A DNA stretch of 64,000 nt, from assembly GCA_963682175.1 (NCBI GenBank), contig OY821777.1:3799501-3863500 (forward strand). Direction: 5' to 3'. Position numbers and translations under genes: made by a program. The stretch is from Triglochin maritima (taxonomy: Eukaryota; Streptophyta; Magnoliopsida; Alismatales; Juncaginaceae). This document shows, one piece after another, positions 4,701 to 60,420 of this stretch. Under the pieces are notes generated by a model. The model was not told the origin of the DNA. It ran no database searches and worked only from the letters and a program-made list of their open reading frames with translations. Every line of letters starts with the position of its first letter. Within the stretch, counting starts at the first letter, position 1.

Positions 4701-6035
4701 TTGGTTTCGAGATATCGTTTTCATCTAAGACATGTTGGTTCGCAACAGGTCGTTCAGGGTCTCGCTTCCGGAAAGAGGTCGACCGATTGTCACTTCCGGA
4801 CGACCGATTCCCTTGAGGAAAACGGTCGACCGAGTGGTCTCTTTCGGTCGACCATTTTTGCACAGGACAGAATTTCTGGTTCCCTTTTTGAATGCCAACT
4901 TTGTCCACGGAAACCCGTGTCCTCGCCTTGTGCGTGAGCCGGGAGGTGACGGTGGGCGCGTTCCGCGTGCCTGCCCAGGGACCGCCGTGTGGGAAAGTGT
5001 GGGTGTTCGGGACGCGTCACCTCCATGTATGGACCGTGACTAAGATGATGGATTGATTGGACTCATTGTAGTATAGCAGGCCTGATGGATCGCGGATCTC
5101 ATTGTATGATGTTTGTGCGGGCACGCAACTGGCGTTGGGTGAGGTGACTACCGGCCCTTGGGGCTACGGAGGTCGCTGCCCTACTTTTATAGCAGCGCGG
5201 TTGGTGTTTGCGGCTCGTGGAGCCTGATGACCTGACAGACTTCGGTCTGGACCTGTCCGATGTTGTGCCGGACGTTTGTGATGGACCACCGATGCTGTGT
5301 CGGTGATGACACCGAGGTTGTGCCGGCGATGATGATTGTTGGGCCGAGGCTGTTCCGGCTATGTTGATTCCTCGACTGGGCACCTATCGAGATGATGTTG
5401 TTATACCTACCGGGCGACGACCCCGTTGGTCCTCGTGGCTCCGACCACAGAGATTTGCAGATCTGTATTCTATCGGCCTGCAGGCGTGACAGAGGCTCTC
5501 TGCCGAACCCTTGAGTAGTGTAGCCGCGTGTGGGGGTGCGATGTCGCGTGCTGTAAGACTGCATGTGCCTGCAGTATGTCTCCTCGGGAGACCCGATGTT
5601 GACTGTCGGACTGATGTCCTGTTTCACCCTTCGGGGGAAATGTTTTCTTTTCTGTTGATGTCATGACATGCTACTAGTATGATAGGTTCATTGTGTAATG
5701 CACGCATATAGGTGAGTTGGCATACGGGGTTTCTTCTGGAAACTCAGGCATCATTGTTATATATTTTTCAGGACCACAGTAGGTCCAGTTGTGTGGTGAT
5801 CGGCGGGCGGGCGCATTTTTGGAGTCGGATCCTCTACTCGGACCACTGAGGTCGACATGATTACATTTATCTTCCCTTGTTGTTCTGTAGTAATCATGTA
5901 TCATTTTGACAAACTCTGATGTATTTTGGTGCACCGCTTTTATGTTTTACGAGAAGTAACAGTCCCGCATTTGATTATTGAGTTGATTGTCTTGATTATA
6001 AATTTTTAAATTTTCCGTTGTTTCGGGATGTTACA
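4700..6035 (-). mobile_element. LTR-like block, possibly Ty3/gypsy, incomplete
   Basis: This block is GC-rich compared with its surroundings. Its right edge at 6035, read on the minus strand, begins TGTAACATCCCGAAACAACG, a start typical of plant Ty3/gypsy LTRs. I could not find a matching TG...CA left edge or a target duplication (GAAGT follows at 6036), so the left limit is uncertain. It contains two pairs of the palindrome CGGTCGACCG near 4776-4854. No gag-pol coding is present, so it is a solo LTR or a truncated one. Confidence 0.45.
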
Positions 6036-6172: not shown

Positions 6173-6224
6173 AATAGTGTTGGAATTTGGTTTATAATTG
6201 TTAATACAGGAAAACAGGGAGAAA

Positions 6225-6729
6225 CGGTCGACCGGAACTTAAGTCACGGTCGACCGATTTACTCCAGGAGCCTGGAGGCTCGGAACAGATCGAGGAACGG
6301 TCGACCGGTTCGGGGAATTCGGTCGACCGAAAACGGCCAGTAGATTTGGAGCTCGGATCTTTTGAAGAACGGTCGACCGGTGTTGGACACGCGGTCGACC
6401 GAATTCGTCCAGTAGCTTTTCAGCAGTGAAGAATGGTCGACCGGTGTTGGACACGCGGTCGACCGAATTCGTCCAGTAGCTTTTCAGCAGTGAAGAACGG
6501 TCGACCGGTGTTGGACACGCGGTCGACCGAATTCGTCCAGTAGCTTTTCAGCAGTACAGAACGGTCGACCGGTGTTGGATACGCGGTCGACCGAAATTGT
6601 CCAGGAGCTTCGAGCGTTGTTCAGCAGCGCGGAACGGTCGACCGGCAATGGGCGAGCGGTCGACCGAACGATGGCAGTTACGCGAACTAACCGAAGTTCG
6701 GTCGACCGATGGGTCATTCCGGTCGACCG
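6225..6729. repeat. Array of eight paired CGGTCGACCG palindromes
   Basis: Site starts are (6225, 6247), (6298, 6320), (6370, 6392), (6434, 6456), (6498, 6520), (6562, 6584), (6635, 6657) and (6699, 6720). Every pair is 22 bp apart except the last, which is 21. Gaps between pairs are 32 or 40-41 bp, and pair-to-pair periods are 73, 72, 64, 64, 64, 73 and 64. The spacer sequences inside pairs differ (for example GAACTTAAGTCA, GTTCGGGGAATT, GTGTTGGACACG), while their 12-bp length is kept. Site 6434 has T for the first C. The array lies 54-558 bp upstream of the LTR TATA box. Confidence 0.95.
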
Positions 6730-6782
6730 TTTTCAGACAGTTATGCACGATCTGAACTTTTCTTTGTACGATTTTAGCCTAT

Positions 6783-6790
6783 TATAAATA
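6783..6790 (+). promoter_or_regulatory. TATA box of copia 5' LTR
   Basis: TATAAATA sits about two thirds into the LTR, just before a run of sequence conserved with the other LTR family. The equivalent box in the 3' LTR is at 11856-11863. Confidence 0.7.
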
Positions 6791-7187
6791 GGATTTTCGC
6801 CCTAATCTTGTAATATAACACACAAACTTTATTTCCTTGAGAGAGATTAGGCTAGAGAGAGATCTAGAGTGCTTTGGGAGACGCATTGCTTCCAAATCGT
6901 GTAATCTCGGAGACTTCTCTTGTTGGAGAAGAGCTTCAAGGAAAGAAAATCCGCAGGAGACCCCCCCAAGGACGTAGGCATCTTGCCGAACCTTGTAAAA
7001 TCGCTTGTGTCGTGGTTTGCTTCAGGTGTGTTGATTGATTGCTTGTTATTTCCATCTTAATTGTGTTTACTTGTTGCATTGAGATTGGGAGAGGGTCAGA
7101 AGTTATATTTCCGCATTCAATATTTGTTTTTCGTGGTGCGTGTAATCCGTGTCGAGTTAGTGCATCGTAGATCCCCCTCCCAACAGC

Positions 7188-7199
7188 TGGTATCAGAGC
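7188..7199 (+). other. Primer binding site (tRNA-iMet type)
   Basis: TGGTATCAGAGC starts three bases after the 5' LTR end. It is complementary to the 3' end of the initiator methionine tRNA, the usual primer of plant copia elements. Confidence 0.9.
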
Positions 7200-7215
7200 T
7201 TTGGTTGCACTTTCG

Positions 7216-10200
7216 ATGGCGGAAGAAGCGCGGAATTTTCGGGTGGAGAAATTCACCGGAAAAGGGAACTTCTCAACATGGCAACGGAGGGTTCGTGCGT
7301 TGATGTCTCAGACGGACGGGTTATTGCTGACGTTGGATGGAATTGAGAAGAAGCCGTCGAAGATGACCGACGAAAAGTGGGAGAGTCTGAATCTCCGGGC
7401 TATTGGAATCATCGAGTTGTGCCTCTCGGATGATTTGCTTTTCGAGGAATCGGCGAAGACCACGGCAGAATATTGGAAACTTCTGGAGGAGAGGTTCATG
7501 AAGAAGAACCTTAGCAACAAGTTAAATCTGAAGCGTCAGCTGTACATGCTTCGGATGAAGGAGAACACACCGTTCATTGAGCATCTCTCGGTGTTCAATA
7601 AGTTGATAGCTGATCTGACTCAGCTTGAGGACAAGATGGAGGATGTAGACAAGGCAATGTTGTTATTGACGTCGCTGCCGGACTCGTATGAGAACTTGGT
7701 GAATACGATCATATATGGCAAGGATTCGTTGGTGTTGAAGGAGGTCAAGGGCACGCTGATCTCCTACGATGCAAGGAGGAATTCTGGTAGTAGCTCTTTC
7801 GAGAAGGGTGAAGGATTGATCGCAGCACCGGAAAGGGGCAGGACAAGTAACAAAGGAAGAAGCAACGGAAGGGGCCGGTCCAAATCAAAGGGGAAATCCT
7901 TTGAATGTTTTTTCTGCAAGAAGGTTGGTCATATGAAGCGTGATTGTAGAGCCTTCAATGAGTCGCTGCAGAAAGGGAAAGACGGGTACAACTCCGCTAG
8001 CGTGGTGGAGGAAAAGAACGAAGTCGACGTTCTAACGGTTTGCGCTGCAGGTATTGACAAATCATCATCTGGATGGATTTTGGATACAAGAGCATCTTTT
8101 CACATGTGCCCGGATAAGGAGTGGTTCACATCCTATGAGCCACTGAAAGGAGGGATCGTTGTTATGGGTAACGATGCGCCGTGCACTACCGTCGGTATTG
8201 GTTCCGTACAGTTCAAGATGTTCGATGGGTGCATTCGAACGCTGACGGGTGTGCGTCACGTACCGGAGTTGAAGAAGAATCTGATTTCTCTAGGAGAACT
8301 TGATACTCTTGGGTGGAGATGGTCCGGCGGGGACGGAAAGATTAAGGTCACTCATGGGGCGATGACAGTGATAAAGGGAACCAAGGTGGGCAACTTGTAT
8401 TGGATGCTCGGGAATGCAGTAGCAGGAAAAGGTGCAGCAAATGTTGCACAAGACGAAGACAACACCGCACTTTGGCATATGAGGCTTGGTCATATGTCGG
8501 AAAAGGGTTTGTGTGAGCTACACAAACAAGGATTGCTGAAGGGTGTTAAGAGCTGCAAATTGGATTTTTGCAAGTATTGTGTCTTCGGTAAACAGCACAG
8601 GATTCGGTTCAAGACGGCTATCCACAAGACGAAAGAAATTCTGGAGTATGTGCACTCAGACGTCTGGGGACCGGCTCAGGTTCGGTCAAAGGGTGGAGCA
8701 GAATATTTCGTCACATTCATAGACGACTTCTCAAGGAAGGTATGGGTTTATTTTCTGAAAAATAAATTTGAAGTCTTTGATAAGCTTAAAGCATGGAAGG
8801 CCAAAGTAGAGAAAAGTACAGGAAAATTTGTTAAGTACTTAAGGACAGATAACGGAGGTGAGTACACCTCAAGGGAGTTTGCAAGTTTCTGTGAGAAAGA
8901 AGGCGTCACGAGGCATTTCACTACACCGCGGAGTCCGGAACAAAACGGCGTAGCTGAAAGGATGAACAGGACACTATGTGAACGGGCAAGGAGCATGAGG
9001 CTTCATGCAAATCTGTCGAAGGACTTTTGGGCGGAAGCGGTAGATCTTGCATGTTACTTAGTAAATATCTCACCGTCATCGGCACTTGAATTAAAGACGC
9101 CTCAGGAAGTGTGGACGGGTGAGCTATTTGATTACTCGAGGCTTAGGATATTTGGATGCAAAGCCTATGCGTTGGTCGATGAGACACAACGGTCGAAGCT
9201 GGATTCGAAATCAAAGGAGTGTATATTCTTTGGTTACGATAGGGCAGTGAAAGGATATAAGCTTTGGGATCCGGTGAGCAAGAAGGTACTCCTACGGAGT
9301 AATGTGGTCTTTGATGAGACAAGTTTGCTCAAGGGCCTAGAGGAGAAAGAGCAGCAAGAGGTTCCCATGCAGGATGACGAAATTGAAGTTGGGGTCACGA
9401 CTTCAAGGGAAGAATCGAATCAAGAAGTTCAGCAAGAAACAATTGACTCACAAGTAGAGGAGGAAGCTGAGCAAAAGAGTATTGCTCAAGGAAGACAGAG
9501 GAGGATCACAAAGGCACCGGTGAGGTATGGTCACGATGATGCTAGTATTGCGTTTGCACTTGTTACCGAATGTGGGGACCCTTGCACATTCGAAGAAGCT
9601 ATTGAGCAAGAGGACAGGAACAAGTGGATGGTGGCCATGACCGAAGAGATGGAGTCTCTTCATAAGAATCAAACTTGGGAGTTAACGGAGCTTCCCAAGG
9701 GAAAGCGCGCGATTGGGTGCAAGTGGATCTTCAGGAAGAAAGAAGGGTCATCTCCTATGGAGGAGATAAAGTATAAAGCAAGGTTAGTGGCAAAAGGATA
9801 TGCTCAGAAGGAAGGGGTCGATTACAACGAGATCTTCTCACCCGTTGTAAAGCATACCTCTATTAGAGTGTTGCTAGCTATGGTAGCTATGGACAACATG
9901 GAGTTAGAGCAAATGGACGTGAAGACAGCTTTTCTTCACGGGCACATAGAGGAAGAAATCTATATGAAGCAGCCGGATGGGTTCATCACACGAGGCAAGG
10001 AAGGACAAGTATGCAAGCTGAAGAAGTCTCTCTATGGACTTAAGCAATCGCCGAGGCAGTGGTACAAAAGGTTCGATTTATTTATGATTAATAATGGTTT
10101 TGTACGTTGCGATTATGATAGTTGTGTATACTTGCGGAGTCTTGGAGACGGCACACACGTGTTCTTGCTTTTGTATGTGGATGACATGTTGATCGCGGCT

Positions 10201-11145
10201 AAGGAGATGAAGCATATAGATGATCTCAAACTGAAGCTTCACGGGGAGTTTGAGATGAAAGACCTCGGGAGTGCAAAGAAGATACTCGGTATGGAGATCT
10301 CCAGGGATACCGAGAGAGGTGAAATTCTGCTCACTCAAAGGAGTTATATCCGGAAGATACTCGAGAGGTACAATCTCGAGAATGCCAAGCAGGTGGCCAC
10401 ACCTATTAGTGCTCACTTCAAGCTCTCGTTGAAGTGCAGCCCCTCTACTGAAAAAGAAATGAGAGATATGGAGAGAGTTCCATATGCTAGTGCAGTCGGA
10501 TCCGTTATGTATGCTATGATCTGCACTAGGCCAGACATTTCACACGCAGTTAGCCTCGTGAGTCGTTATATGGCTAACCCAGGAAAAGAGCATTGGGAAG
10601 CGTTGAAGTGGTTGTTGAGGTACCTGAAAGGAACCATGGATGTTAGCTTGAAGTTCACCAAAGATGGAGCACAAAGGCAGGTGGAGGGGTACGTTGATTC
10701 AGATTATGCTGGAGATTTGGATAAGCGGATGTCCACAACAGGGTACGTGTTCACTTTGGGTGGAGGTCCAGTAAGTTGGAGATCGGTTCTCCAACATACT
10801 ACCGCGTTGTCTACAACGGAAGCGGAGTACATGGCTGTTGTCGATGCCGGGAAAGAAGCTATATGGTTGAAGGGTTTGGTTAGCTCTTTGGGGATGGAAC
10901 AAGAAGTGACCAAATTGCATTGCGATAGTCAAAGTGCAATTTATCTAGCCAAGGATCAGACGTTCCATTCAAGGACCAAACATATTGAAGTAAGGTACCA
11001 CAAGATCCGGGAGTGGATCGAAGAAGGGCAGGTTGTTCTCCAGAAAATCGACACGAGTGAGAATCCTGCAGATATGATGACTAAGGTCGTCAATCGGGAG
11101 AAGTTCGAGTTGTGCTTGAAGCTTCTCAATGTCCTCAGAAATTGA
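7216..11145 (+). CDS. Copia gag-pol polyprotein
   Basis: This frame encodes a 1309-residue polyprotein starting at the first ATG (MAEEARNF). In order it shows a Gag region (about 1-200), a zinc knuckle CX2CX4HX4C at 231-244, and a protease region with WILDTRASFHM near 287-297. The integrase follows, with the GAG-pre-integrase part (LWHMRLGHMS) and catalytic D482, D545 and E581 (35 residues between the last two). Reverse transcriptase has YVDD at 987-990, and RNase H has DSDYAGD and TEAEYMA. There are no stops or frameshifts over 3.9 kb. The one oddity is the protease active site: the family motif is D-(S/T)-G-A, and here residue 292 is Arg (codon AGA at 8089-8091) in place of Gly, which probably disables the protease. 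The frame is otherwise what a recently active element would have. Confidence 0.95.
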   Translation: MAEEARNFRVEKFTGKGNFSTWQRRVRALMSQTDGLLLTLDGIEKKPSKMTDEKWESLNLRAIGIIELCLSDDLLFEESAKTTAEYWKLLEERFMKKNLSNKLNLKRQLYMLRMKENTPFIEHLSVFNKLIADLTQLEDKMEDVDKAMLLLTSLPDSYENLVNTIIYGKDSLVLKEVKGTLISYDARRNSGSSSFEKGEGLIAAPERGRTSNKGRSNGRGRSKSKGKSFECFFCKKVGHMKRDCRAFNESLQKGKDGYNSASVVEEKNEVDVLTVCAAGIDKSSSGWILDTRASFHMCPDKEWFTSYEPLKGGIVVMGNDAPCTTVGIGSVQFKMFDGCIRTLTGVRHVPELKKNLISLGELDTLGWRWSGGDGKIKVTHGAMTVIKGTKVGNLYWMLGNAVAGKGAANVAQDEDNTALWHMRLGHMSEKGLCELHKQGLLKGVKSCKLDFCKYCVFGKQHRIRFKTAIHKTKEILEYVHSDVWGPAQVRSKGGAEYFVTFIDDFSRKVWVYFLKNKFEVFDKLKAWKAKVEKSTGKFVKYLRTDNGGEYTSREFASFCEKEGVTRHFTTPRSPEQNGVAERMNRTLCERARSMRLHANLSKDFWAEAVDLACYLVNISPSSALELKTPQEVWTGELFDYSRLRIFGCKAYALVDETQRSKLDSKSKECIFFGYDRAVKGYKLWDPVSKKVLLRSNVVFDETSLLKGLEEKEQQEVPMQDDEIEVGVTTSREESNQEVQQETIDSQVEEEAEQKSIAQGRQRRITKAPVRYGHDDASIAFALVTECGDPCTFEEAIEQEDRNKWMVAMTEEMESLHKNQTWELTELPKGKRAIGCKWIFRKKEGSSPMEEIKYKARLVAKGYAQKEGVDYNEIFSPVVKHTSIRVLLAMVAMDNMELEQMDVKTAFLHGHIEEEIYMKQPDGFITRGKEGQVCKLKKSLYGLKQSPRQWYKRFDLFMINNGFVRCDYDSCVYLRSLGDGTHVFLLLYVDDMLIAAKEMKHIDDLKLKLHGEFEMKDLGSAKKILGMEISRDTERGEILLTQRSYIRKILERYNLENAKQVATPISAHFKLSLKCSPSTEKEMRDMERVPYASAVGSVMYAMICTRPDISHAVSLVSRYMANPGKEHWEALKWLLRYLKGTMDVSLKFTKDGAQRQVEGYVDSDYAGDLDKRMSTTGYVFTLGGGPVSWRSVLQHTTALSTTEAEYMAVVDAGKEAIWLKGLVSSLGMEQEVTKLHCDSQSAIYLAKDQTFHSRTKHIEVRYHKIREWIEEGQVVLQKIDTSENPADMMTKVVNREKFELCLKLLNVLRN

Positions 11146-11250: not shown

Positions 11251-12258
11251 TGTTGGAATTTGGTTTATAATTGTTAATACAGGAAAACAGGGAGAAACGG
11301 TCGACCGGAACTTAAGTCACGGTCGACCGATTTACTCTAGGAGCCTGGAGGCTCGGAACAGATCGAGGAACGGTCGACCGGTTCGGGGAATTCGGTCGAC
11401 CGAAAACGGCCAGTAGATTTGGAGCTCGGATCTTTTGAAGAACGGTCGACCGGTGTTGGACACGCGGTCGACCGAATTCGTCCAGTAGCTTTTCAGCAGT
11501 GAAGAACGGTCGACCGGTGTTGGACACGCGGTCGACCGAATTCGTCCAGTAGCTTTTCAGCAGTACAGAACGGTCGACCGGTGTTGGACACGCGGTCGAC
11601 CGAATTCGTCCAGTAGCTTTTCAGCAGTACAGAACGGTCGATCGGTGTTGGACACGCGGTCGACCGAAATTGTCCAGGAGCTTCGAGCGTTGTTCAGCAG
11701 CGCGGAACGGTCGACCGGCAATGGGCGAGCGGTCGACCGAACGATGGCAGTTACGCGAACTAACCGAAGTTCGGTCGACCGATGGGTCATTCCGGTCGAC
11801 CGTTTTCAGACAGTTATGCACGATCTGAACTTTTCTTTGTACGATTTTAGCCTATTATAAATAGGATTTTCGCCCTAATCTTGTAATATAACACACAAAC
11901 TTTATTTCCTTGAGAGAGATTAGGCTAGAGAGAGATCTAGAGTGCTTTGGGAGACGCATTGCTTCCAAATCGTGTAATCTCGGAGACTTCTCTTGTTGGA
12001 GAAGAGCTTCAAGGAAAGGAAATCCGCAGGAGACCCCCCCAAGGACGTAGGCATCTTGCTGAACCTTGTAAAATCGCTTGTGTCGTGGTTTGCTTCAGGT
12101 GTGTTGATTGATTGCTTGTTATTTCCATCTTAATTGTGTTTACTTGTTGCATTGAGATTGGGAGAGGGTCAGAAGTTATATTTCCGCATTCAATATTTGT
12201 TTTTCGTGGTGCGTGTAATCCGTGTCGAGTTAGTGCATCGTAGATCCCCCTCCCAACA
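11251..12258 (+). repeat. 3' LTR of copia element, with paired palindrome array
   Basis: This copy has the same length as the 5' LTR and is offset by exactly 5073 bp. It repeats the eight-pair palindrome array at 11298-11802. One site here reads CGGTCGATCG. Differences from the 5' LTR cluster inside the tandem 64-bp units, which fits exchange between units as well as point mutation. Confidence 0.95.
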
Positions 12259-19556: not shown

Positions 19557-20530
19557 TGTTGAATATTGGCTTATATTTGTTAAGGAAACAAATCTAGGAT
19601 GAGTCGGTCGACCGGATGAGATCCGGTCTACCGACGCACAACCCAGGAAATTTCGGCGAAGACGGGTCGGTCTACCGAATTGGATTCGGTCCACCAAACC
19701 GAGGATTCCAGGTACTCCGTGTGCAGCTGTGATCGGACGACCGAATTGGATTCGGTCTACCGTCAAAGAACATGTGACACTTTGGAACAACGGGTTCGAT
19801 AAACCGTTGAGGAGATTTTTTGTGTTCCGAGAATCTAAAAGTGTGGACAATTTAGCACGGTCCACTGAGAGGTTCTCGGTCGACCGAAGGGTTGTTGAAG
19901 AATTCGTTAGTTCGTGAAAGAATCGTTCTCGCGGTCTACCGAGCCACGTGAGAAGCGTTCCCTCGGTCAACCGGGAAGGATTTGGTTAACTGAATCGGAA
20001 CAATAATCTCTCCTGTTGAAGCACGAACGGGCGACCGAATGAGCATCGGTCGGCCGTTCCGCACGAATAGTTCTGTTCGGTCTTGCTTAATTGTAGTTCG
20101 GTTTTTGAGTCTATAAAAGAGCTTGTTTGCTTTTAGTCTTATATCATATATTGCATACAACATTTATTTCCTTCATTGTGAGTTGAGAGATTAAGGTTAG
20201 AGATAGATCTAGAGTGATTTGAAGGACTTATTGTCTCCATATACTTGTAATCTCGGTTGCTTCTCTTGTTGGAGAAACGGAAGAAGGAAAGAAAACCCGC
20301 AAGAGACCCCCCAAGGACGTACGCACGTTGCCGAACCTTGTAAATCGCGTGTGTCGTGGTTGTTTCAGGTGTGCATTTGTGTTTGCTTGTTCATTTTTAT
20401 CTTGCTTGTGTTCTTGTTGCAATTGAGTTTGGGAGATGGTCCGAAGTTAATTCCGCAATCAATATTTGTTATTACGTGGTGTGTTTAATCCATGTTTCGT
20501 ATAAGTACATTGTTAGATCCCCACCCAAGA
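19557..20530 (+). mobile_element. Solo LTR (974 bp) in PAA1-like intron
   Basis: It starts TGTTGAATATTGG and ends CCCACCCAAGA (the expected CA is now GA). It is flanked by the 5-bp duplication CCTTG at 19552-19556 and 20531-20535. No internal region is present, so it arose by LTR-LTR recombination. Its R/U5 part resembles the complete copia LTRs, while its U3 is diverged and has palindrome pairs 19 bp apart. A TATA box TATAAAA is at 20112-20118. It lies in the intron before the last exon of the PAA1-like gene. Confidence 0.93.
19605..20056. repeat. Array of 19-bp-spaced CGGT-NN-ACCG palindrome pairs
   Basis: Pairs start at (19605, 19624), (19668, 19687), (19734, 19753), (19858, 19877), (19964, 19983) and (20028, 20047). 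Each is exactly 19 bp apart, leaving 9-bp spacers. An extra unpaired site is at 19932. Core centres vary (CGGTCGACCG, CGGTCTACCG, CGGTCAACCG, CGGGCGACCG), while the outer CGG...CCG is mostly kept. Confidence 0.9.
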
Positions 20531-22270: not shown

Positions 22271-24520
22271 TGAACTGCTAAACATCGTCTGTAAATTACT
22301 TAAATCACCCGTTTGAATTACCACATTGTTCTTTTCTTATTTCTACTTATATATATCTTCATTTCACTCCAACCATCACTCTCACTTCGTCTTCTTAAAA
22401 CTCATCAAAAACAATGTCTCGAAGGTCAAGAAAAGAACCAGTGGATGTCTTGATGTACTCAAATTAGATAAAAAATCTCATTTATTTTAAGTTAACAAAA
22501 ATAAATAAAATGGAGGGGATGTTCCGTAATTTTTTAATATAATAAAAAAAAATTTAAAAATTCGAAATTTAGGAAAAATTTTTTTTTTTTTCCAAAACTA
22601 GTTGGATCGTGGGTGTGACCCGCGATCCGTCGGGCACGGATCGCGGTTCCGTCTCTCCCGCCAAATTTTTTTTTTTGAAAATTTCACGGATCGCGGTTCT
22701 GAACCGCGATCCGTGAATTTTTTTTTTAATATTTTTTTAATTTCTTTATTTCTGTTTTTCTTTTTTATTATAATTATTTTTAATCTTTTTTAAAATCTTT
22801 TTTTTTCAAAATATGTTTTCTAATTTATATTATTTTTTAAAAATTTAAAAATTTGTTTTTAATTTTTTCAAAAATCGACCTCCAAATCACGTCGATAACC
22901 CGACGTATTGAATTGTTAGGGTATTTTATACAATAAAAAAACAAAATTTATTTGTCAGAAAAATAAATTATTTGCAACAAAATATTAAACAAACACTAAA
23001 ACTAATTAAAACAAAAAATTGGTAACGTTGTCGAAAATTCGTAGGGTGTACACACATTACAAACAGTTTTGGAGGTCGATACAGCAAAAAATTAAAAACA
23101 CAATTAAATTTTTTTTAAAAATAATAACAATTACAAAACATATTTTGGAAAGAAATATAATAAAAAAACTTAGTTAAAATGATTTAAAAAAATTCAAAAC
23201 ATGAAACACTACGACTAAAATCCGTGATTTTATTTATTTTCTTTTATTGTTTTTGATTTTTTAGGTTTTCGGTTTTAGTTTTTTTTCTTCTGTTTTTCTT
23301 TTTTATTTTAATTATTTATAATCTTTTTTAAAATCTTTTTTTTTCAAAATATGTTTTCTAATTGATATTATTTATTAAAAAAAATTAATTTTGTTTTTAA
23401 TTTTTTCAAGAAACGACCTCCAAATCACGTCGATAACTCGGCGTGTATTGAATTGTTAGAGTATTTTATACAATATAAAAACAAAATTTCTTAGTTAGAA
23501 TAATAAATTATTTACAACTGAATATTAAACAAACCATAAAACTAATTAAAACAAAAAATTGGTAACGTTGTCAAAAATTCGTAGGGTGTACACACATTAC
23601 AAACATTTTGGAGGTCGATACAGCAAAAAATTAAAAACACAATTCAAAATTTTTAAAAATTAATAACAATTACAAAACATATTTTGAAATATATATATAT
23701 ATATAAAACATAGTTAAAATGATTTGTAAAAAAACAAAACATAAAATCAAAAACAATAAAAGAAAATAAAAAAGTCAAGGATTTTGATTTTTTTAAAATC
23801 GTTTTAACTATGTTTTTTATTATATTTATTTTCAAAATATGTTTTGTAATTGTTATTATTTTTTAAAATTTTTTAATTGTGTTTTTAATTTTTTGCTGTA
23901 TCGACCTCCAAAAATATTTACAATGTGTGTACACCCTACTAATTTTTGATAACGTTTCGAATTTTTTGTTTTAATTAGTTTTAGTGTTTGTTTAATATTC
24001 AGTTGTAAATAATTTATTAATCTGTCTAAAAAAATTATTTTTTTATTGTATAAAATACCCTAACATTTCAGTACGTCGGGTTATCGACGTGATTTAGAGG
24101 TCGATTATTGGAAAAATTAAAAATAATTTTAAAAAATTTAAAAAAATAATATAAATTAGAAAACTTATTTTGAAAAAAAAAGATTTAAAAAAAGATTACA
24201 AATAATTACAATAAAAAATAAAAACAGAAAAAACAAAAAAAAAATCAAAAAATTTTTTTTTTTTGGCGGGAACACGGATCGCGGGTGTGACCCGCGATCC
24301 GTGCTCCACAGATCGCGGGTCACACCTGCGATCCGTGCTCCACGGATCGCGGGTGGGAACCGCGATCCGTGCCCCACGGATCGCGGGTCACACCCGCGAT
24401 CCACCTAGTTTTGGAATTTTTTTTTTTTTTTTCCTAAATTTCGAATTTTTAATTTTTTTTTTATTATATTAAAAAATTACGGGGGATGTTTGCGGGAGCC
24501 CCCCAATGAGAGTTTTTTGG
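22271..24520. mobile_element. Old MITE copy, interrupted by a Mutator-like element
   Basis: The left end (CTAAACATCGTCTGTAAATT at 22278) resembles the terminal repeat of the MITE at 24521. Its internal AAAATAAATAAA...GAGGGGATGTT stretch also matches that MITE's inside. It is split at 22523/24482 by the insertion of the element at 22524-24481. Its own right terminal repeat has been lost or replaced by the neighbouring copy. Confidence 0.6.
22515..24490. mobile_element. Foldback Mutator-like element, copy 1
   Basis: The element spans 22524-24481 (1958 bp) with the 9-bp target duplication GGGGATGTT at 22515-22523 and 24482-24490; this duplication size is typical of Mutator-like elements. The ends are long inverted repeats (CCGTAATTTTTTAATATA at the left) and continue inward through palindromic GGATCGCGGGTGTGACCCG blocks, so the whole element is close to one large palindrome. 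Inside, a block (about 22740-23210) is repeated directly at 23280-23740 and again inverted at 23770-24260. No transposase is encoded, so it is non-autonomous. It is extremely AT-rich except for the GC-rich palindromes near each end. Confidence 0.85.
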
Positions 24521-28700: not shown

Positions 28701-31700
28701 TTTACAAACCTATGATTATAACCTATTAATTGTCTTCTGATAACGACATATTTGCCTTGTTCAATTTGTTGGACTTAAGAAATCCATCACGTTATGGGTA
28801 AGGATGTGAACTAGGGCTGTGGCTTGTAGGGTCCTCAAAACAAGTTAAGTTGCTTAAGTGGCGCTTTTTGTGTTTTATGTGGGTCTTATTTGAGCCATCT
28901 GAATCTTGAGTAGGTTTGGGTATTTCAAAGCTTGTCAAATTGTGTTCACCTTGATGCAACTTGTCGATCTATCATGACTTGATTTCGATCAGCTTGGGCT
29001 TGATCTTCTAAACATGTAATTTATCTAACTCTTAACACTTTATAGAAAATAATTTCAGTTCTACTACCCTTGCTATCTGTCTTGATTTCAAAGACAATGT
29101 CGATGGTGAGCGTAGTGCAAGAGAGAGATCTCCATTTAGGGATCATACTTTACTCAAACATTCATCGTGGCATTGTCTTTTGTGATACCTTGATGCTTTA
29201 GTGCACTTCAGCAATTTAGTTTTACCTCAATATCGAAATTCAATTTTTTTGCCTCTTTGCCTTCTATGATCCTTTATTTTATTTTCTCTTTGCTTCTTTA
29301 AAAAAGTCCCTCAAGCTCTATGGTCATTGGCATTCATTTTCATGACTTCGGCATTGGTATTTGATGCTGGTTTGGTTGTTTATCTGGCATGGACGTATCT
29401 AAGATATGTAAGAAAATGATTAGGATACACAGAAGAAACAACTTAGAGATACATTATATATGTTGGAATGTGTCGTTGAATGCATGGTGTATACACCCCC
29501 TTTTATCCAATATTTCAATTGCAACTCTTTGAAGGTTTTTCCTGTGAATCTCAGTAAATTGACATGCTATACGAGAAATATCATATGAACAAAAAAAATT
29601 GTTTCATTTTCAGCTCCTTTCCACGCAGACATGCCATAAGTTTTGTTGTTGTTTTGACTTTTAAAGACTGTCAGTCTGTGACTGGCTCTGATCAATTTGT
29701 TATGGTTCTTCCCATTATAGGATGACTTTCCCTGCAAATAGAAATAGTCTGTTCTTTTGCATGAAATTTGACTATATACTACTTCATTGGCATCATTCAA
29801 TTTTATTAAATCTTTCCTCCAAATGTACAGAGCACGTGGTGATGGTATCAGTTGCTGTCCTTATTGTCTTGTTCAGTGTTCAGAGATTTGGAACCAGCAA
29901 AGTTGGTCTTGTAGTGGGCCCTGCTCTGCTGATATGGTTTTGCTCTCTGGGGGGAATTGGCATCTATAATCTCCTCAAATATGACACAAGAGTTTTGAGA
30001 GCGTTCAATCCTTTACACACCTTCTATTTCTTCAAGAGAAATTCAGCTCAAGCTTGGGTTGCCCTAGGTGGTTGTCTTCTATGTGTGACAGGTTAGTTAT
30101 TGGAGTTAAAGTTTGAATCAACCAAATCAGTTCAGATTGAATATGCAGCTACTAGCATGTTGAGTCTTTCCCCTAAATTTCGTCCATGCATTTTCTTGAA
30201 CTTCAGATATTAGATATTCATGTTTCTAAAAATATATCTTTGTTGTGAAGCAGAAAAATAAACATCATAAGTTTTCATCTTTTGATCCTTGGGGTTTGAT
30301 TCCTGAGTATAACTAGATGTTATCTAGTTCATCTTTATGATATCATATGAAGCAATGAAGATGATTTACATTGCAGGATCCGAGGCGATGTTTGCAGATC
30401 TTTGTTACTTCTCAGTCAGATCAGTGCAGGTTATTATTTGTTTGTGGTATTTATTTCTTGGATGCTGCACATGCATGTTATTTTATTCACTTTTAATATA
30501 TCATTTCTGCTTGTGCAGCTTACTTTTGTGTTACTTGTTTTGCCATGCCTCTTGCTGGGATACCTTGGTCAAGCTGCATACCTTATTGAAAATTATGCTG
30601 AATCTGAGCAAGTTTTCTTTTCTTCAGTTCCACGTAAGTTGGCAGAGTGCTACCTTAGTGACTTTTTACCTCTTCCCTTTGCATCGTATTTCATTATAAG
30701 TTTGTGTCAATTGTTTGGGCCTTCTTTGGACACAATATAGTGAAAACATTTTCTTGTTGATAACTTTAAATTCTAAATTTTGAAACTTCGTTTTTTTTTC
30801 TTGATTCATTCTTAAACCATATTCTGTTTTGTTTCAATAACTATTGGGATGACGACGACGATGATGATTTCTTGTAATTTTACTGCAGAAGGTGTTTTCT
30901 GGCCAGTTGTGCTTATAGCGAATATAGCTGCACTAATCGCTAGTCGTACAATGACAACAGCAACATTTTCATGCATAAAGCAGTCAACAGCACTTGGCTG
31001 TTTTCCTCGTCTTAAAATCATCCATACCTCTAGGAAGTTCATGGGTCAAATATACATTCCAGTTGTAAACTGGTTTCTGTTGGTATTCTGTCTGGGATTT
31101 GTCACTACTTTTGGAACCACTAGAGAGATTGGAAATGCATATGGTAAGCATGATCTTAATTCGAATTTTAAACTATTTAGTTATTTATAATGAACATCTC
31201 TTTTGTAATTTATGTTTGCAGTTTAACATAACTGGAATAAGTTTGCAGGATATGGTAGATTATGTTACTGCACAAATAAATCAGTTTGCATAGGGCAGTG
31301 GAAATTGTCTTCTCGATAATCAGGGATTTCTTTTGGAGGCAAAGTTACCTGTTTTAGTTTATCTTCTATATTTATCAAGATACAATATAATTCGGATAAC
31401 AATTTCAAGAGTAATCTGCAAACACAAATATCATTTACTCAAATTTTGTCATTGAAAAGGAAATGTCAGTGATGTAGCATGAAATCTGTTAGCAGAACTT
31501 TAACTTTGTGGTATATTTTTTTTGTATAAATGATAGGGTTAATTTTAATTAAAGGTGGATTGCATAACCTCATCCATCAGACCACGGGTTACTACGGGGG
31601 TGGGGATCGAACCCACGTCCTATCCCCAGATAGAACTTGGACCAGCTGGGATACACATCTTGTGGTAGTTATAGTGGGCCATGTTCATCTTGGCATATCT

Positions 31701-33998
31701 CAATAGTATGTGGTGATAGGAGGAGGTTTCAGGTACTTCCGTACTTGATCATACTGAATCGCGTTCCAAGTACTTGGCAGAATGTGAAGAACTCTTGTTT
31801 TACATTGTTAGATCACATCACTAGAATCAGCTATTGCCTTGTTGTCATTTAAACTTGAAGTTTAAGCTTCAAGCTTCTAATCTTGATTATGTATTAGGAA
31901 ATTATTTACAATAGCATCACTCATAAGCAAAATGTATGATAATAAAAGCTACCTGCAGCACTGGAAGTGATACTGATGCACTACCGATAAAAAAAAGAAA
32001 AACAAAGAAAGTGGTACCGAGTCACTAGATACGGAATGTAATGTGTTAACTTTGCATTTACGTTAAGTGCCATTGTTTATTGTTGAAAGTGGTACTTGAA
32101 AATTATAAAATGGATTTATTGTTTCACACAGAGAATGGTCCTTCATGAATTATTTCCAAATAGACCATTGTCTTGTGTGTTTCTTGGTCACCAGATACTG
32201 TTGTTGGTACTAAAATGAGATGAGCTATTCTTGACACTTTTACTTTGTTATCTTGACTTTAAATATAAGGAACCTCCTTATATTTCAAATGCTCTGTCAA
32301 GCTAGTTCATCATATCCTGATTCATAATCCTTTTCTTGCAGTCATCACCGAAATTGGGGTAATGATGACAACAACAATTCTAGTGACTATTATTATGCTC
32401 ATGATATGGCAGATTAACATCATCCTCGTGTTGAGCTTTCTTTTCTTCTTCCTCGGCTTGGAGATGATTTTCTTCTCTTCCGTCTTGGGAAGTGTGGCAG
32501 ATGGTAGCTGGGTATTGCTGGTCTTTGCAGCAGCATTGTTTTTCATAATGTACATATGGAATTATGGGAGCAAACTCAAGTATGAGACTGAAGTTAAACA
32601 AAAACTTTCAATGGATTTGTTGAAGGGATTGGGTTGCAATCTTGGTACTATTAGAGCTCCCGGCATTGGTTTGGTTTACAATGAACTTGTCAAAGGAATT
32701 CCAGCAATCTTTGGCCATTTCCTCACGAGCCTGCCAGCTATTCACTCAATGATCATATTCGTGTGTATAAAATATGTTCCAGTACCAATGGTACCTCAGA
32801 ACGAGAGGTTTCTGTTCCGCCGAGTTTGTCCAAAGAGCTATCACATGTTCCGATGTATTGCAAGGTTTGTTTATATTCAAGACTTATTTTAAATATTATA
32901 AAAGCCATGGACTCTGAGTCTCTTGACTTATTTTAGTTCGTGATTATCCATTATAAAATTCCAATGTCTGGCATCATTTTTCCTGTTGCTAAGCAGTTGG
33001 TTAAGCCACCTCAAGTTCACTTTTCCTTACTGATTGATTGGACTTTAAATAATGTGGTGAAAATTTGGTCTCAACTAGGTTTCTGAGTTGGGTTTCACTT
33101 TTATTGTCTTGCATCTTTTTTTAGTCATGATTATGCTTCACAAGTTCACATCTCTTGTTTTTCATGTGATTCTCCTCTTTCTTTGACTTCAATCGTTTAC
33201 CCAAAATAGGAGCATCGATCACTCTTGGAATAGTTATGAAATTATGTTGTCATTTTATGTCTATTCGGTTAATATCTTCAGTTGAAATTTTAACAATTTA
33301 GAAGATCTACCACTTCATTAAACTTGCTAGAATTTTGTAGTCTGGGGATCTTTGTAGGAATTGTAGCTGGTGCTATTTCACTTGATTAAAATTTGGTACA
33401 TTGACGATCATTAGGTTGTGTTTCCTCAACTCCACCTTGTATGGTGTATGCTATTGCTAACATTGCCCCCAACAGGTATGGCTACAAAGATATAAGGAAA
33501 GAAAACCATCAAGCCTTCCAACAGCTTTTAATTGAGAGCCTCGAGAAATTTATCCGAAGAGAAGCCCAAGAGCGCTCATTAGAGAGTGATGAGGATGGTG
33601 AAAATGATACTGAGGAAGTGGAGTCATACTCAAGATTTTGTGTTGGTCCAAATGGCAGACTTTATTCCCTTGATGTTCCTCTTTTGGCTGAATATAGATC
33701 GCACACAAAAACATCTGCAGCAAGCACCTCGCTTCAAGAAACTACAGGTGAGATAACTCTTGATGCAGCTGAAACCCTCGAGAGGGAGCTCTCGTTTATT
33801 CACAGAGCCAAAGATTCTGGAGTTGTTTACCTACTTGGCCATGGCGATATCAGGGCAAGAAAGGATTCATGGTTCATCAAGAAGCTAGTCATAAATTACT
33901 TCTATGCGTTCTTGAGAAGGAACTGTCGCAGGGGGACTGCTAATCTGAGCGTGCCTCACACAAACTTAATGCAGGTTGGTATGACATACATGGTGTGA
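25785..33998 (+). CDS. KT/HAK/KUP potassium transporter, KUP7-like
   Basis: This gene encodes a high-affinity-type K+ transporter of the plasma membrane, related to Arabidopsis KUP7/POT7 (known for root K+ uptake and xylem loading). Ten exons join in frame to 834 residues: 25785-26030, 27737-27965, 28069-28317, 28412-28462, 29831-30091, 30377-30429, 30519-30633, 30889-31143, 32342-32864 and 33476-33998. All have AG acceptors and GT donors. The N-terminus is acidic (EEDDDSDDD), followed by RTGPRIDSFDVEALEVPGA, then the transmembrane core with GVVFGDVGISPLYTF (the family signature), IKYVLVVLWANDDGEGGTFA and ASRTMTTATFSCIKQS. The C-terminus has GVVYLLGHGDIRARKDS and ends LMQVGMTYMV. The length compares with about 858 in Arabidopsis KUP7; KUP12 ends similarly, so the symbol is left open. 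No lesions are seen. Confidence 0.93.
31557..31660 (-). mobile_element. SINE-like fragment (tRNA-derived head)
   Basis: On the minus strand this stretch has a box-A-like CCCAGCTGGTCCAAGTT (about 31635-31652) and a box-B-like GGTTCGATCC (about 31603-31612), spaced as in RNA polymerase III promoters. The following GTAGTAACCCGTGGTC region and a low-complexity tail fit a plant SINE. It lies in intron 8 of the KUP7-like gene; no target duplication was identified. Confidence 0.5.
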
Positions 33999-35652: not shown

Positions 35653-36252
35653 TGTTAGGGAATAAAATTAATCTTAAATATGCAGCGGAACGAAAACGAC
35701 AAATCCAATGAAGAAAAGAAACCACAATTGCAAATCCACAACCACCAAACTATGCAAAACACGTAAGATTTAACTTGGAAACCCAATGTGGGAAAAACCA
35801 CGGACGACACAATCTAAATCTACTATAAAGAAAACGAATTACAAAGAGAGACTTACAGAACACACGACCAACCACATTCGGTCGACCGAACATAAAACCG
35901 TAGCGCAACCCAGAGCTTCATCGGTTGACCGTAAATTCCCAGACAGTATCACAATGCTCCAATCGGTCGACCGTGACTTAAGTGTCGGTCGACCGAAAAC
36001 TTGTAGGAAGTTTTCCTGGACGTCCAATGCATACTCGGTCGACCGTGACTTAAGTTCCGGTCGACCGAAAACTTCCAGACCCTTCTACTCTGCTCCAAGT
36101 GCGCTCCTGGTCGACCGAAAACTTTTAAGCACTTTTCATGGACAATTAAAAACACACTACCGGTCGACCGAACTCCTCTTGATCGACCGAACGTCTGTTT
36201 TCTCCCATAAATACTTTAATTCACATATTCAAAGGTAAACTACAACAATGAC
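35648..36252 (-). mobile_element. Solo LTR (595 bp), third LTR family
   Basis: The LTR is 35653-36247, starting TGTTAGGG and ending TACAACA on the plus strand, with the 5-bp duplication ATGAC at 35648-35652 and 36248-36252. The sequence outside the palindromes is unlike the other LTRs here. The strand call rests on the CCCACATTGGG leader-like text reading on the minus strand. It carries CGGTCGACCG pairs 22 bp apart (35964/35986 and 36036/36058), both with an ACTTAAGT spacer, plus a 19-bp pair (36161/36180). Confidence 0.9.
35879..36189. repeat. Palindrome array in third LTR family
   Basis: Site starts are 35879, 35922, 35964, 35986, 36036, 36058, 36108, 36161 and 36180. Two pairs are 22 bp apart and one is 19 bp apart. 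Several sites read CGGTTGACCG or lack one outer base. Confidence 0.85.
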
Positions 36253-42465: not shown

Positions 42466-44296
42466 CCGTAATTTTTTAATATAAAAAAAAAAATTTAAAA
42501 ATTCGAAATTTAGGAAAAAAAAATTTCTTCCAAAACTAGGTGGATCGCGGGTGTGACCCGCGATCCGTCCCTCCCGCCAATTTTTTTTTTTTTTGAAAAT
42601 TTCACGGATCCGTGAAATTTTTTTTTAATTTCTTTACTTCTGTTTTTCTTTTTTATTATAATTATTTTTAATCTTTTTTTAAATCTTTTTTTTTCAAAAT
42701 ATGTTTTCTAATTTATATTATTTTTTAAAAATTTAAAAATTTGTTTTTAATTTTTTCAAAAATCGACCTCTAAATCACGTCGATAATTGAATTGTTAGGG
42801 TATTTTATACAATAAAAAAACAAAATTTATTTGTCAGAATAATAAATTATTTGCAACTAAAAATTAAACAAACACTAAAACTAATTAAAACAAAAAATTG
42901 GTAACGTTGTCGAAAATTCGTAGGGTGTACACACATTACAAACAGTTTTGGAGGTCGATACAACAAAAAATTAAAAACACAATTAATTTTTTTAAAAAAT
43001 AATAACAATTACAAAACATATTTTGGAAAGAAATATAATAAAAAAACTTAGTTAAAATGATTTAAAAAAAATTCAAAACATAAAACACTACGACTAAAAT
43101 CCGTGATTTTATTTATTTTCTTTTAATGTTTTTGATTTTTTCGGTTTTCTGTTTTAGTTTTTTTTTCTTCTGTTTTTCTTTTTTATTTTAATTATTTATA
43201 ATCTTTTTTAAAATCTTTTTTTTTAAAATATGTTTTCTAATTGATATTATTTATTAAAAAAATTTAATTTTGTTTTTAATTTTTTCAAGAAACGACCTCC
43301 AAATCACGTTGATAACTCGGCGTGTATTGAATTGTTAGGGTATTTTATACAATATAAAAACAAAATTTCTTAGTTAGAATAATAAATTATTTACAACTGA
43401 ATATTAAACAAACCATAAAACTAATTAAAACAAAAAATTGGTAACGTTGTCAAAAATTCGTAGGGTGTACACACATTACAAACATTTTGGAGGTCGATAC
43501 AGCAAAAAATTAAAAACAAAATTCAAAATTTTTAAAAATTAATAACAATTACAAAACATATTTTGAAATATATATATATAAAACATAGTTAAAATGATTT
43601 GTAAAAAAACAAAACATAAAATCAAAAACAATAAAAGAAAATAAAAAAGTCACGGATTTTGATTTTTTTTAAATCGTTTTAACTATGTTTTTTATTATAT
43701 TTATTTTCAAAATATGTTTTGTAATTGTTATTATTTTTTAAAATTTTTTAATTGTGTTTTTAATTTTTTGCTGTATCGACCTCCAAAAATATTTACAATG
43801 TGTGTACACCATACTAATTTTTGATAACGTTTCGAATTTTTTGTTTTAATTAGTTTTAGTGTTTGTTTAATATTCAGTTGTAAATAATTTATTAATCTGG
43901 CTAAAAAAATTTGTTTTTTTATTGTATAAAATACCCTAACATTTCAATACGTCGGGTTATCGACGTGATTTAGAGGTCGATTATTGGAAAAATTAAAAAT
44001 AATTTTAAAAAATTTAGAAAAATAAGATAAATTAGAAAACTTATTTTGAAAAAAAAAGATTTAAAAAAAGATTACAAATAATTACAATAAAAAATAAAAA
44101 CAGAAAAGAAAAAACAAAGACAGAAAATAAAAAAAAAATTGGCGGGAACTCGGATCGCGGGTGGGAACCGCGATCCGTGCCTCACGTATCGCGGGTCACA
44201 CCCGCGATCCACCTAGTTTTGGAAAAAAAATGTGTTTTTCCTAAATTTCGAATTTTTAATTTTTTTTTATTATATTAAAAAAATTCGGACTGATAG
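42457..44296. mobile_element. Foldback Mutator-like element, copy 2
   Basis: The element is 42466-44287 (1822 bp) and is closely similar along its length to the copy at 22524-24481. It has the same CCGTAATTTTTTAATATA left end, GGATCGCGGGTGTGACCCG palindromes near both ends, and the same internal direct plus inverted block order. The flanking 9-mers TACTTATGG and GACTGATAG agree at only six of nine positions, suggesting an older insertion. No transposase is encoded. Confidence 0.85.
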
Positions 44297-50711: not shown

Positions 50712-50848
50712 CAGTCGACCGTCAACATTTCAGTACACCGAAATATGTAATTCGGACGACAGGAATTAGTTCGGTCCACCATTTATGTTCGCTCAAGGAA
50801 ATCACTGGAATTCTCATTTCGATCGACCGAAACTAGTTCGATCGTCCG
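50712..50848. repeat. Degraded LTR remnant with 19-bp palindrome pairs
   Basis: Degenerate sites start at (50712, 50731), (50753, 50772) and (50820, 50839). All three pairs are exactly 19 bp apart, with cores such as CAGTCGACCG, CGGTCCACCA and CGATCGACCG. No LTR ends could be fixed, so it is probably an eroded member of the family at 19557. Confidence 0.7.
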
Positions 50849-55402: not shown

Positions 55403-56380
55403 TGTTGGGAGGGGATCTAATAATGCACTTATACGAAACACGGATTAAACGCACCACGTATACCAAATATTGATTGCGAAATTAACTTCGAACCCTCTCA
55501 CAAACTCAATTGCAACAAGAACACTAATAAGATGAAAATAAACAAGCAAACACAAATGCACACCTGAAACAAATACGACACACGCGATTTACAATGTTCG
55601 GCAACGTGCCTACGTCCTTGGGGGTTTCCTGCGGGTTTCCTTTCATTCTTCCGCTTCTCCAATAAGAGAAGCAACCGAGATTACAAGTATATTGAAGCAA
55701 TATGTCTTCCAAATCACTATAGATCTAACTCGAACCTTAATCTCTCAACTCACAATGAAGGAAATTATGTTGTATGCTATATGATATAAGACTAAGAGCA
55801 AACAAGCCATTTTATAGACTCAAAAACCGAGTTACAATTAAGCAAAACCGAACAAAACTATTCGTGGGGACACGGTTAACCGATGCTCGTTCGGTTAACC
55901 GTGCGTGCTTCAACAGGAGCGATTCATGTTCTGATTCGGTTAACTGAATCCTTCCCGGTTGACCGAGGGAACGCTTCTCACGCGGCTCGGTAAACCGCGA
56001 GAACGATTCTTTCACGAACTAACGAATTCTCCAACAACCATTCGGTCGACTGAGAACCCCTCGGTGGACCGTGTCAAATTGTCACAGACACTTTCAGATT
56101 CTCGGAAGACCAAAAATCTCCTCAACGGTTTACCGAACCCGTTGTTCTGAAGTGTCACTTGCTCTCTGACGGTAGACCGAATCCAATTCGGTCGTCCGAT
56201 CCCAGCTGCACACGGAGTGCCTGAAATCCTCGGTTCGGTGGACCGAATCCAGTTCGGTAGACCGACCCGTCTTCGTCGAAATTTTCTGGGTTGTGCGTCG
56301 GTAGACCGAATCCAATCCGGTCGACCGACTCTTTCTGGATTTGCTTTCTTAACAAATATAAGTCATTATTCAACGGGATC
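55398..56380 (-). mobile_element. Solo LTR (973 bp), same family as 19557, reversed
   Basis: The LTR is 55403-56375. Read on the minus strand it runs parallel to the solo LTR at 19557-20530. The flanking 5-mers are AGATC (55398-55402) and GGATC (56376-56380), one mismatch; the terminal CAACA has become CAACG. Palindrome pairs are again 19 bp apart, for example 55873/55892, 55937/55956 and 56299/56318. Here several cores are CGGTTAACCG, changed symmetrically from CGGTCGACCG. Confidence 0.9.
55873..56327. repeat. 19-bp palindrome pairs in reversed solo LTR
   Basis: The pair at 55873/55892 has the same CGGTTAACCG core in both members, while the equivalent pair in the 19557 copy reads CGGGCGACCG and CGGTCGGCCG. 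The 19-bp spacing is kept despite the core changes. Confidence 0.85.
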
Positions 56381-60036: not shown

Positions 60037-60420
60037 TATACATGCCTCGTTCGTCGGAGCCACGACATTGCCTCAGTGTTACCGGAGCCACGGTTTTGCA
60101 TCTATCGCCGGAGTCACGGTTTTGCCTCATTCGCCGGAGCCACGACAAAACAATCACCCCCTCCTCATGTGTCACCACTGATCGCTATAGGGCCGGCCTG
60201 CCCGTCTGTTGCCCCAAAAGGGCCGGTGAACTCGTTGCCTTCTAGCCAATCAACACAACACCCAACACCAACTGTGTAAAAACGGTCGAACAAAAGCCGT
60301 CTTTCGGTCGACAGATCCTAACCTAGAGAACTGGCCCAACCGAAAAACTCGCCAATCGGTCGAACGACAAAAGGGACCCGGTCAACCGAAAAACACCGAT
60401 AAGAAAACCATTTTCGCAAA
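60037..60420. other. Short tandem repeats and eroded LTR array
   Basis: At 60048-60150 a CGCCGGAGCCACGG unit of roughly 30 bp repeats about three times. At 60283-60388 degenerate palindrome sites form two pairs, 60283/60305 and 60357/60379, both 22 bp apart, which suggests an eroded LTR. No gene is seen. Confidence 0.6.

Follow-up and report, generated by a model that had tools for sequence, protein, structure and literature searches.

The window, that is, the whole 64,000-nucleotide stretch of Triglochin maritima DNA analysed here, harbors an intact Ty1/copia retrotransposon of 6081 bp (element A), whose LTRs each carry an array of palindromic boxes. The main features of the element are:

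6178 to 7185, plus strand: 5′ LTR, 1008 bp, with TGTTGG...CCAACA ends and TSD AATAG
6783 to 6790, plus strand: TATA box TATAAATA, 54 bp past the last box of the array
7186 to 7199, plus strand: LTR/PBS junction GCTGGTATCAGAGC
7201 to 11145, plus strand: one open reading frame, 1314 aa
11241 to 11250, plus strand: putative polypurine tract AGGTGGAG plus AT, preceding the 3′ LTR
11251 to 12258, plus strand: 3′ LTR, 99.2% identical to the 5′ LTR, with its array at 11298 to 11802

A Pfam domain search of the reading frame, performed in four pieces, revealed gag_2, a CCHC knuckle, Pol_BBD, gag_pre-integrs, rve, SH3 and RVT_2 along its length, and returned no match in the final piece (10501 to 11142), the expected place of RNase H. 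The gag-integrase-RT order, the RVT_2 domain, the LTRs and the 5-bp TSD place this young retrotransposon in Ty1/copia. Five of the RT relatives among the matches listed (120 of 6882) were named TNT 1-94, none of those listed carried a usable lineage label, and an IMG/VR search with the RT returned two stretches, neither of them a relative.

We compared element A with the Sireviruses. Its 9-bp PBS (TATCAGAGC) agrees with the Sirevirus PBS, and the Sirevirus AT/TG attachment site is present (...GGAGAT/TGTTGG). At 6.08 kb with a linker of 105 bp, it falls below the Sirevirus genomes (8.45-14.42 kb) and linkers (0.52-3.96 kb) tabulated in PMC2829016, where classic copia elements average 5.60 kb and 0.078 kb, respectively. 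The junction reads CA/GCTGG rather than the Sirevirus CA/ATTGG, both before TATCAGAGC. The multiple AGGGGGAG polypurine tracts of Sireviruses had 0 copies on the plus strand between 6000 and 12300, and a second copy of AGGTGGAG lies inside the reading frame at 10679.

Other content of the window includes a long open frame on the minus strand (357 to 2330), about 4 kb from element A, that matches an RDR2-type RNA-dependent RNA polymerase, the product of a host silencing gene. Among the matches listed (120 of 1182), its relatives reach at most 63% identity and the named organisms are flowering plants. Fragments of a K+ transporter gene (K_trans and K_trans_C) lie at 29692 to 33995. A 1.8-kb repeat, built of internal direct and inverted repeats, occurs at 22524 to 24334 and at 42466 to 44210 (92.6% identical) and is possibly a non-autonomous DNA transposon.

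The initial annotation had described sixteen copies of a 10-bp palindrome in the 5′ LTR, arranged as eight pairs of which seven were spaced 22 bp start to start and one 21 bp. The pairs and their spacing were borne out; the copies proved to be 15 exact CGGTCGACCG boxes and a one-base variant, TGGTCGACCG, at 6434. The array, at 6225 to 6729, is laid out as follows (distances start to start):

6225 to 6256, unstranded: pair P1, 22 bp, spacer GAACTTAAGTCA
6298 to 6329, unstranded: pair P2, 22 bp, spacer GTTCGGGGAATT
6370 to 6593, unstranded: pairs P3 to P6, 22 bp each, in a 64-bp tandem array; P4 has the variant as its left box (6434)
6635 to 6666, unstranded: pair P7, 22 bp, spacer GCAATGGGCGAG
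6699 to 6729, unstranded: pair P8, 21 bp (6699/6720), spacer ATGGGTCATTC

Pair periods along this array are 73, 72, 64, 64, 64, 73 and 64 bp, matching the 64-73 bp previously given. The 3′ LTR repeats the eight-pair layout with 15 exact boxes and CGGTCGATCG at 11635. Within the 5′ LTR array, 31 of 32 half-sites are unchanged, the single altered base (6434) being intact in the 3′ LTR, and all 16 boxes have a CG centre. Exact CGGTCGACCG occurs 40 times in the window and not once in 100 dinucleotide-preserving shuffles. The array is real and non-random. Its kind is already known; the type of element that carries it and its spacing rule are new.

Comparison of the intervening sequences separated two histories. 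The 12-bp spacers within pairs P1, P2, P3 and P7 have 2-6 of 12 bases in common, which bears out the earlier statement of unrelated spacers and flanks as far as the spacers go. The linkers between pairs do not fit that statement: those following P1, P2, P3 and P6 are mutually related (shuffle p between 0 and 0.003 in six comparisons), and the P7 linker is unrelated to them (four comparisons, p 0.19 to 0.77). Much of the array therefore arose by duplication of 64-73-bp units, of which Tandem Repeats Finder (TRF) detected within 6225 to 6729 solely the 64-bp array at 6363 to 6610 (3.9 copies, P3 to P6). The argument for selection accordingly lies in boxes that stay intact while spacers diverge, rather than in unrelated flanks.

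The two LTRs of element A differ at eight positions, three of which (6492, 6493 and 6580) match the base in the adjacent tandem unit. These positions hint at exchange between array units, and a simple point mutation could account for that at 6580. We also looked for a second conserved word in the linkers and rejected both candidates: CCAG in 9 of 21 linkers (p = 0.26 against the best 4-mer in shuffles) and TCCAG in 6 of 21 (p = 0.088).

To place the array in context, we surveyed the whole window for CGGTNNACCG. Allowing up to one mismatch in the arms gave 85 sites, against a mean of 8.8 (largest 17) in 30 first-order Markov sequences; perfect-arm sites numbered 58, against 0.2. Eight arrays, with intervals drawn by the analyst around the sites, hold 78 of the 85, and a single perfect-arm site of the 58 lies outside them, at 35295 (CGGTTGACCG). 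Besides the two LTRs of element A, the arrays are:

4776 to 4854, unstranded: array C, four boxes, pairs of 21 and 22 bp, 26 bp between pairs
19557 to 20530, plus strand: single LTR B1, TSD CCTTG, 14 CGGTNNACCG-like boxes at 19605 to 20056, six 19-bp pairs
35653 to 36247, minus strand: single LTR D, 595 bp, TSD ATGAC, eight boxes, two 22-bp pairs
50712 to 50848, minus strand: array E, six degenerate boxes, three 19-bp pairs; weak likeness to B2 (75% over 44 bp)
55403 to 56375 (ends approximate), minus strand: LTR B2, 89% identical to B1, the same 14 boxes and 19-bp pairs; no TSD identified
60283 to 60388, minus strand: array G, four degenerate boxes, two 22-bp pairs; weak likeness to C (79% over 34 bp)

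Beside array G, from 60421 onward, lies CACTACTACAGAAAATGG with many inverted ACGTCGG-like repeats, a stretch that resembles a CACTA transposon end.

Paired boxes thus recur in five further arrays, mainly at 22 or 21 bp in C, D and G and at 19 bp in B and E. One tandem unit does not explain the fixed pairing, since it is found in these further arrays too; the initial annotation had held the same for element A. Exceptions are one 22-bp neighbour gap in E, one 19-bp gap in D (between 36161 and a weaker ninth site at 36180 with two mismatches), and 2 of the 14 boxes of family B (19797 and 19932), which lack a 19-bp partner on either side. The likeness of A to D, C to G and B to E indicates that the spacing classes have few independent origins. 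A tie between box centre and gap length was considered and rejected: four of the six boxes of E, an array of 19-bp pairs, have a CG centre, and one box in each of D and G, both arrays of 22-bp pairs, lacks it.

The neighbour-distance plot across the window peaks at 22 and 19 bp. Raw gap counts, with no collapsing or additions, were 22 bp (18), 19 bp (12) and 21 bp (3). A collapsed set omitted the 3′ LTR of A, B2 and tandem units P4-P5, counted both P3 and P6, and took in, by hand, five weaker sites chosen for sitting where a pair partner would be (60283, 50753, 50839, 19983 and 36180), which biases it toward the result; its 41 gaps of at most 60 bp comprised 22 bp (11), 19 bp (10), 21 bp (2) and 18 others. 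In this set 21 of 41 gaps were 22 or 19 bp, and 0 of 5000 random placements put so many on two values. In IMG/VR, the exact 22-bp pair was found in two contigs (once within a long reading frame, once amid related words), which we judged irrelevant, and a half-relaxed 19-bp pattern in 49 contigs, where the stretches examined contained at most three perfect-arm sites each.

B1 and B2 lie on opposite strands, and each has a 3′ half like that of element A and a different U3 array. Both are 78% identical to element A in R/U5, B1 additionally matches it over the initial 60 bp (73%), and blastn of A against B found no collinear match spanning the array (LTR positions 60-605). Judged by these alignments, the relation of B1 and B2 to element A is one of modular U3 turnover. 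Furthermore, a unit of LTR D (35963 to 35995 or 36035 to 36067, minus strand) is identical at 33 of 33 bp to the P1 unit of element A (6225 to 6257), spacer GAACTTAAGTCA included, and blastn matches between the A and D LTRs are confined to box-bearing stretches. This common unit suggests that U3 modules may have been exchanged or retained.

The position of the array relative to the promoter agrees with the initial annotation, which had placed it in U3 upstream of the TATA box: TATAAATA begins at 6783, and the distance from the last box to a TATA-like sequence, examined in the three LTR families A, B and D, is +54 bp in A, +56 bp in B1 (TATA at 20112) and +52 bp in D, where the TATA-like sequence is weak (TATAG). 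CpG observed/expected is 1.64 in the A array (GC 0.58), against 0.85 in the reading frame, 0.78 in R-U5 and 0.88 in the window, and reaches 1.49 and 1.48 in the B1 and D arrays. With boxes removed, the ratio of the A array drops to 1.12, and the 71 bases after it, the rest of U3, have 1.61.

A further proposal, that spacing near two helical turns and pair periods of six to seven turns would set sites on one face of the DNA, was not supported as a general rule. In gap lists that were collapsed and typed by hand, with the 19-bp gap of D omitted, 20 linker gaps alone gave p = 0.14 for a 10.5-bp phase, and 17 pair periods gave p = 0.003 at 10.5 bp, yet 8.25 bp fits equally. The apparent phasing of the 41 collapsed gaps (R = 0.49 at 10.5 bp, p 1e-4 versus uniform gaps) arises because the values 19 and 22 repeat, and was set aside. 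Taken singly, arrays A (R 0.76) and D (R 0.65) look phased, but B (R 0.29) does not. By simple arithmetic, 19 and 22 bp lie about 100 degrees of twist apart, so both cannot fall on the same face.

Within the box, arms and centre have evolved differently. Changes from CGGTCGACCG common to both copies of family B affect a single arm position out of 112, against 11 out of 28 in the centre (Fisher p 3e-8), a difference that is partly ascertained, because B boxes were recognised via their arms, and that comes from 14 boxes partly kin through duplication. For each copy alone, the counts are 8/112 arm and 11/28 centre changes in B1, and 3/112 and 16/28 in B2. Between B1 and B2 we found no extra arm conservation (9/112 in arms, 24/258 in linkers and 44/469 downstream). 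Since arm divergence is not clearly lower, the selection seen would predate the B1 and B2 copies; decay of the arms after insertion is as expected for inserted copies. Fixed CGGT/ACCG arms around a free 2-bp centre point to a protein dimer that would read two half-sites.

Collectively, the element A array is very probably a promoter array under selection, its function being one that we infer throughout. Our preferred reading, with a probability of about 0.6, is that it would constitute a U3 enhancer array of a young Ty1/copia element, read by a host dimeric factor and probably bound pairwise. A dimeric host protein would occupy each CGGT-N2-ACCG box, with a subunit on either half-site, and two dimers on one pair would form a cooperative unit, as the spacing alone suggests. 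Protein contacts would fix the pair gap at 12 bp (A, D, G and mostly C) or 9 bp (B and E). Many such pairs beside the TATA box could yield a strong or switch-like promoter, while duplication of 64-73-bp units would enlarge the array and selection would retain the boxes and the spacer length. The earlier idea of a binding array is therefore kept for its promoter-proximal position and for the fit of the B arms and free centre to protein binding, and loses its same-face rule.

An alternative that we consider unlikely, though it draws on a striking property of the spacers, is that fold-back itself is selected. Each pair would then fold as a 29-32-nt inverted repeat, either in the transcript, which includes the U3 of the 3′ LTR, or in single-stranded cDNA; its role would lie in packaging or dimerisation of the RNA, or it would form a hairpin recognised by the small-RNA machinery of the host. 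Seventeen spacers, one per related group as grouped by eye, exceed their shuffles in inverted repeats (any loop: 0 of 5000 reach the observed value), with p = 0.00025 for a loop of 3, 0.002 for 5, 0.0045 for 7 and 0.02 for 4 among eight loop lengths (0-7), the rest being non-significant. The spacers also exceed linker windows (p = 0.00075), so that each pair tends toward one extended fold-back; complementarity about the exact spacer centre, however, gives p = 0.0066 for all 17 spacers and is weak when the 12-nt ones are taken alone (p = 0.107). The predicted RNA of the array reaches an MFE of -274 kcal/mol against -197 to -213 kcal/mol for five box-scrambled versions, but this gap follows trivially from repeated self-complementary words. 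Maize Sirevirus LTRs offer a parallel, as they carry palindrome clusters in a regulatory region and these palindrome-rich regions are described as small-RNA hotspots (Bousios et al. 2016, as presented in PMC5311732 and PMC10760457); the motif quoted there is CACCGGACNNNGTCCGGTG rather than the CGGTCGACCG of element A, and the maize work measured small-RNA mapping.

Two observations weigh against selection for fold-back. In both copies of B, five of the six pairs have box centres that fall short of full complementarity to each other, while the arms are kept; the stem itself is thus unlikely to be what is kept, and selection on a stem would leave a free centre unexplained. The location just upstream of the TATA box is likewise unpredicted.

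Considerably less probable is a purely mutational origin, in which tandem duplication and template switching at quasi-palindromes during reverse transcription make or re-perfect palindromes with no protein reader. Tandem duplication is indeed visible in the linkers, the symmetry of spacers about a 3-nt loop is a possible trace of fold-back copying, and the LTR differences at 6492, 6493 and 6580 match neighbouring unit bases. Copying repair, however, would not retain arms while freeing the box centre alone, would not hold a 9- or 12-bp gap while the gap sequence diverges, and would not make the arrays of three families end 52-56 bp short of a TATA-like sequence. The most improbable reading, an ordinary tandem repeat from one ancestor whose spacing records descent, can draw on the related linkers of P1, P2, P3 and P6, the 33-bp unit identical in A and D, the R/U5 common to B and A, and B1/B2 arms that show no extra conservation over neighbouring sequence after the two copies separated, yet it is already disfavoured because boxes should then decay like the spacers (2-6/12), whereas 31/32 half-sites of A are unchanged, and because the B gap differs (19 bp) while the arms are the same.

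The enhancer reading does not account for everything: the fold-back symmetry of the spacers is unusual, and that explanation does not predict it. A symmetric protein assembly over 29-32 bp would explain part of this symmetry, and fold-back copying in reverse transcription, acting on selected boxes, would also explain part.

The closest known counterparts of the array are the palindromic RM boxes, reported in 13 Sireviruses and with a CGG-CCG signature in 12 of them (Bousios et al. 2010, PMC2829016). The consensus box of a Vitis Sirevirus is exactly CGGTCGACCG, with 12 copies, 10 of them in the 3′ LTR, and RM boxes mostly lie in CpG islands shortly upstream of the TATA box (PMC2829016). The element A box is similarly dyad-symmetric with a CGG-CCG core; its array, likewise upstream of the TATA box, is CpG-rich (o/e 1.64) and has 16 boxes per LTR, where the RM-box definition asks for at least eight copies of high identity. 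Differences are that the element A cluster starts 48 bp into the LTR, against the published 200-400 bp, and that fixed pair spacing is absent from the portion of the PMC2829016 text consulted. The authors of that paper regarded RM boxes as Sirevirus-specific and absent from classic copia; in the same portion, a single binding factor could not be named and no function was shown (PMC2829016). Because element A departs from several Sirevirus criteria but displays the hallmarks of RM boxes, it extends the RM-box class. The box word is therefore already known, and the recurrent paired spacing (22/21 and 19 bp) across arrays is new; in the literature searched, which included few subscription papers, we found no description of the pair grammar or of the box in copia elements outside the Sirevirus criteria.

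A second comparison is with Tnt1, whose LTR BII boxes bind defence-induced factors (PMC3316501) and whose box I is symmetric, as cited in PMC2829016. Tnt1 and element A both have a copia-type pol and repeated U3 boxes that host factors read in the former and would read in the latter. To our knowledge, palindromic pairs at 22 bp have not been described in Tnt1. The literature searched yielded no named plant transcription factor for the palindromic box, and we know of no fit of W-box, MYB, ARF or DREB sites to its TCGA core.

Extending this interpretation across the window, we tentatively suggest, as a possibility that we hold with some doubt, that several retrotransposon families in one plant, beyond the Sireviruses, share a two-level code: a dyad box, CGGT-N2-ACCG, whose centre is free in B, and a family-specific 9- or 12-bp gap. 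Its reader would be a single dimeric factor of the host, or two related ones, that assemble into a tetramer, and families would have exchanged U3 modules.

If true, this would carry the RM-box class beyond Sireviruses into other copia elements and give it a testable grammar of half-sites, pair gap and TATA distance, so that one defined probe would suffice to find the reader of the box. Should the fold-back reading be true instead, the finding would bear on why structures to which small RNAs are drawn are retained in plant LTRs. The two-level code, if it is confirmed, would show how separate retrotransposon families settle on one host factor.
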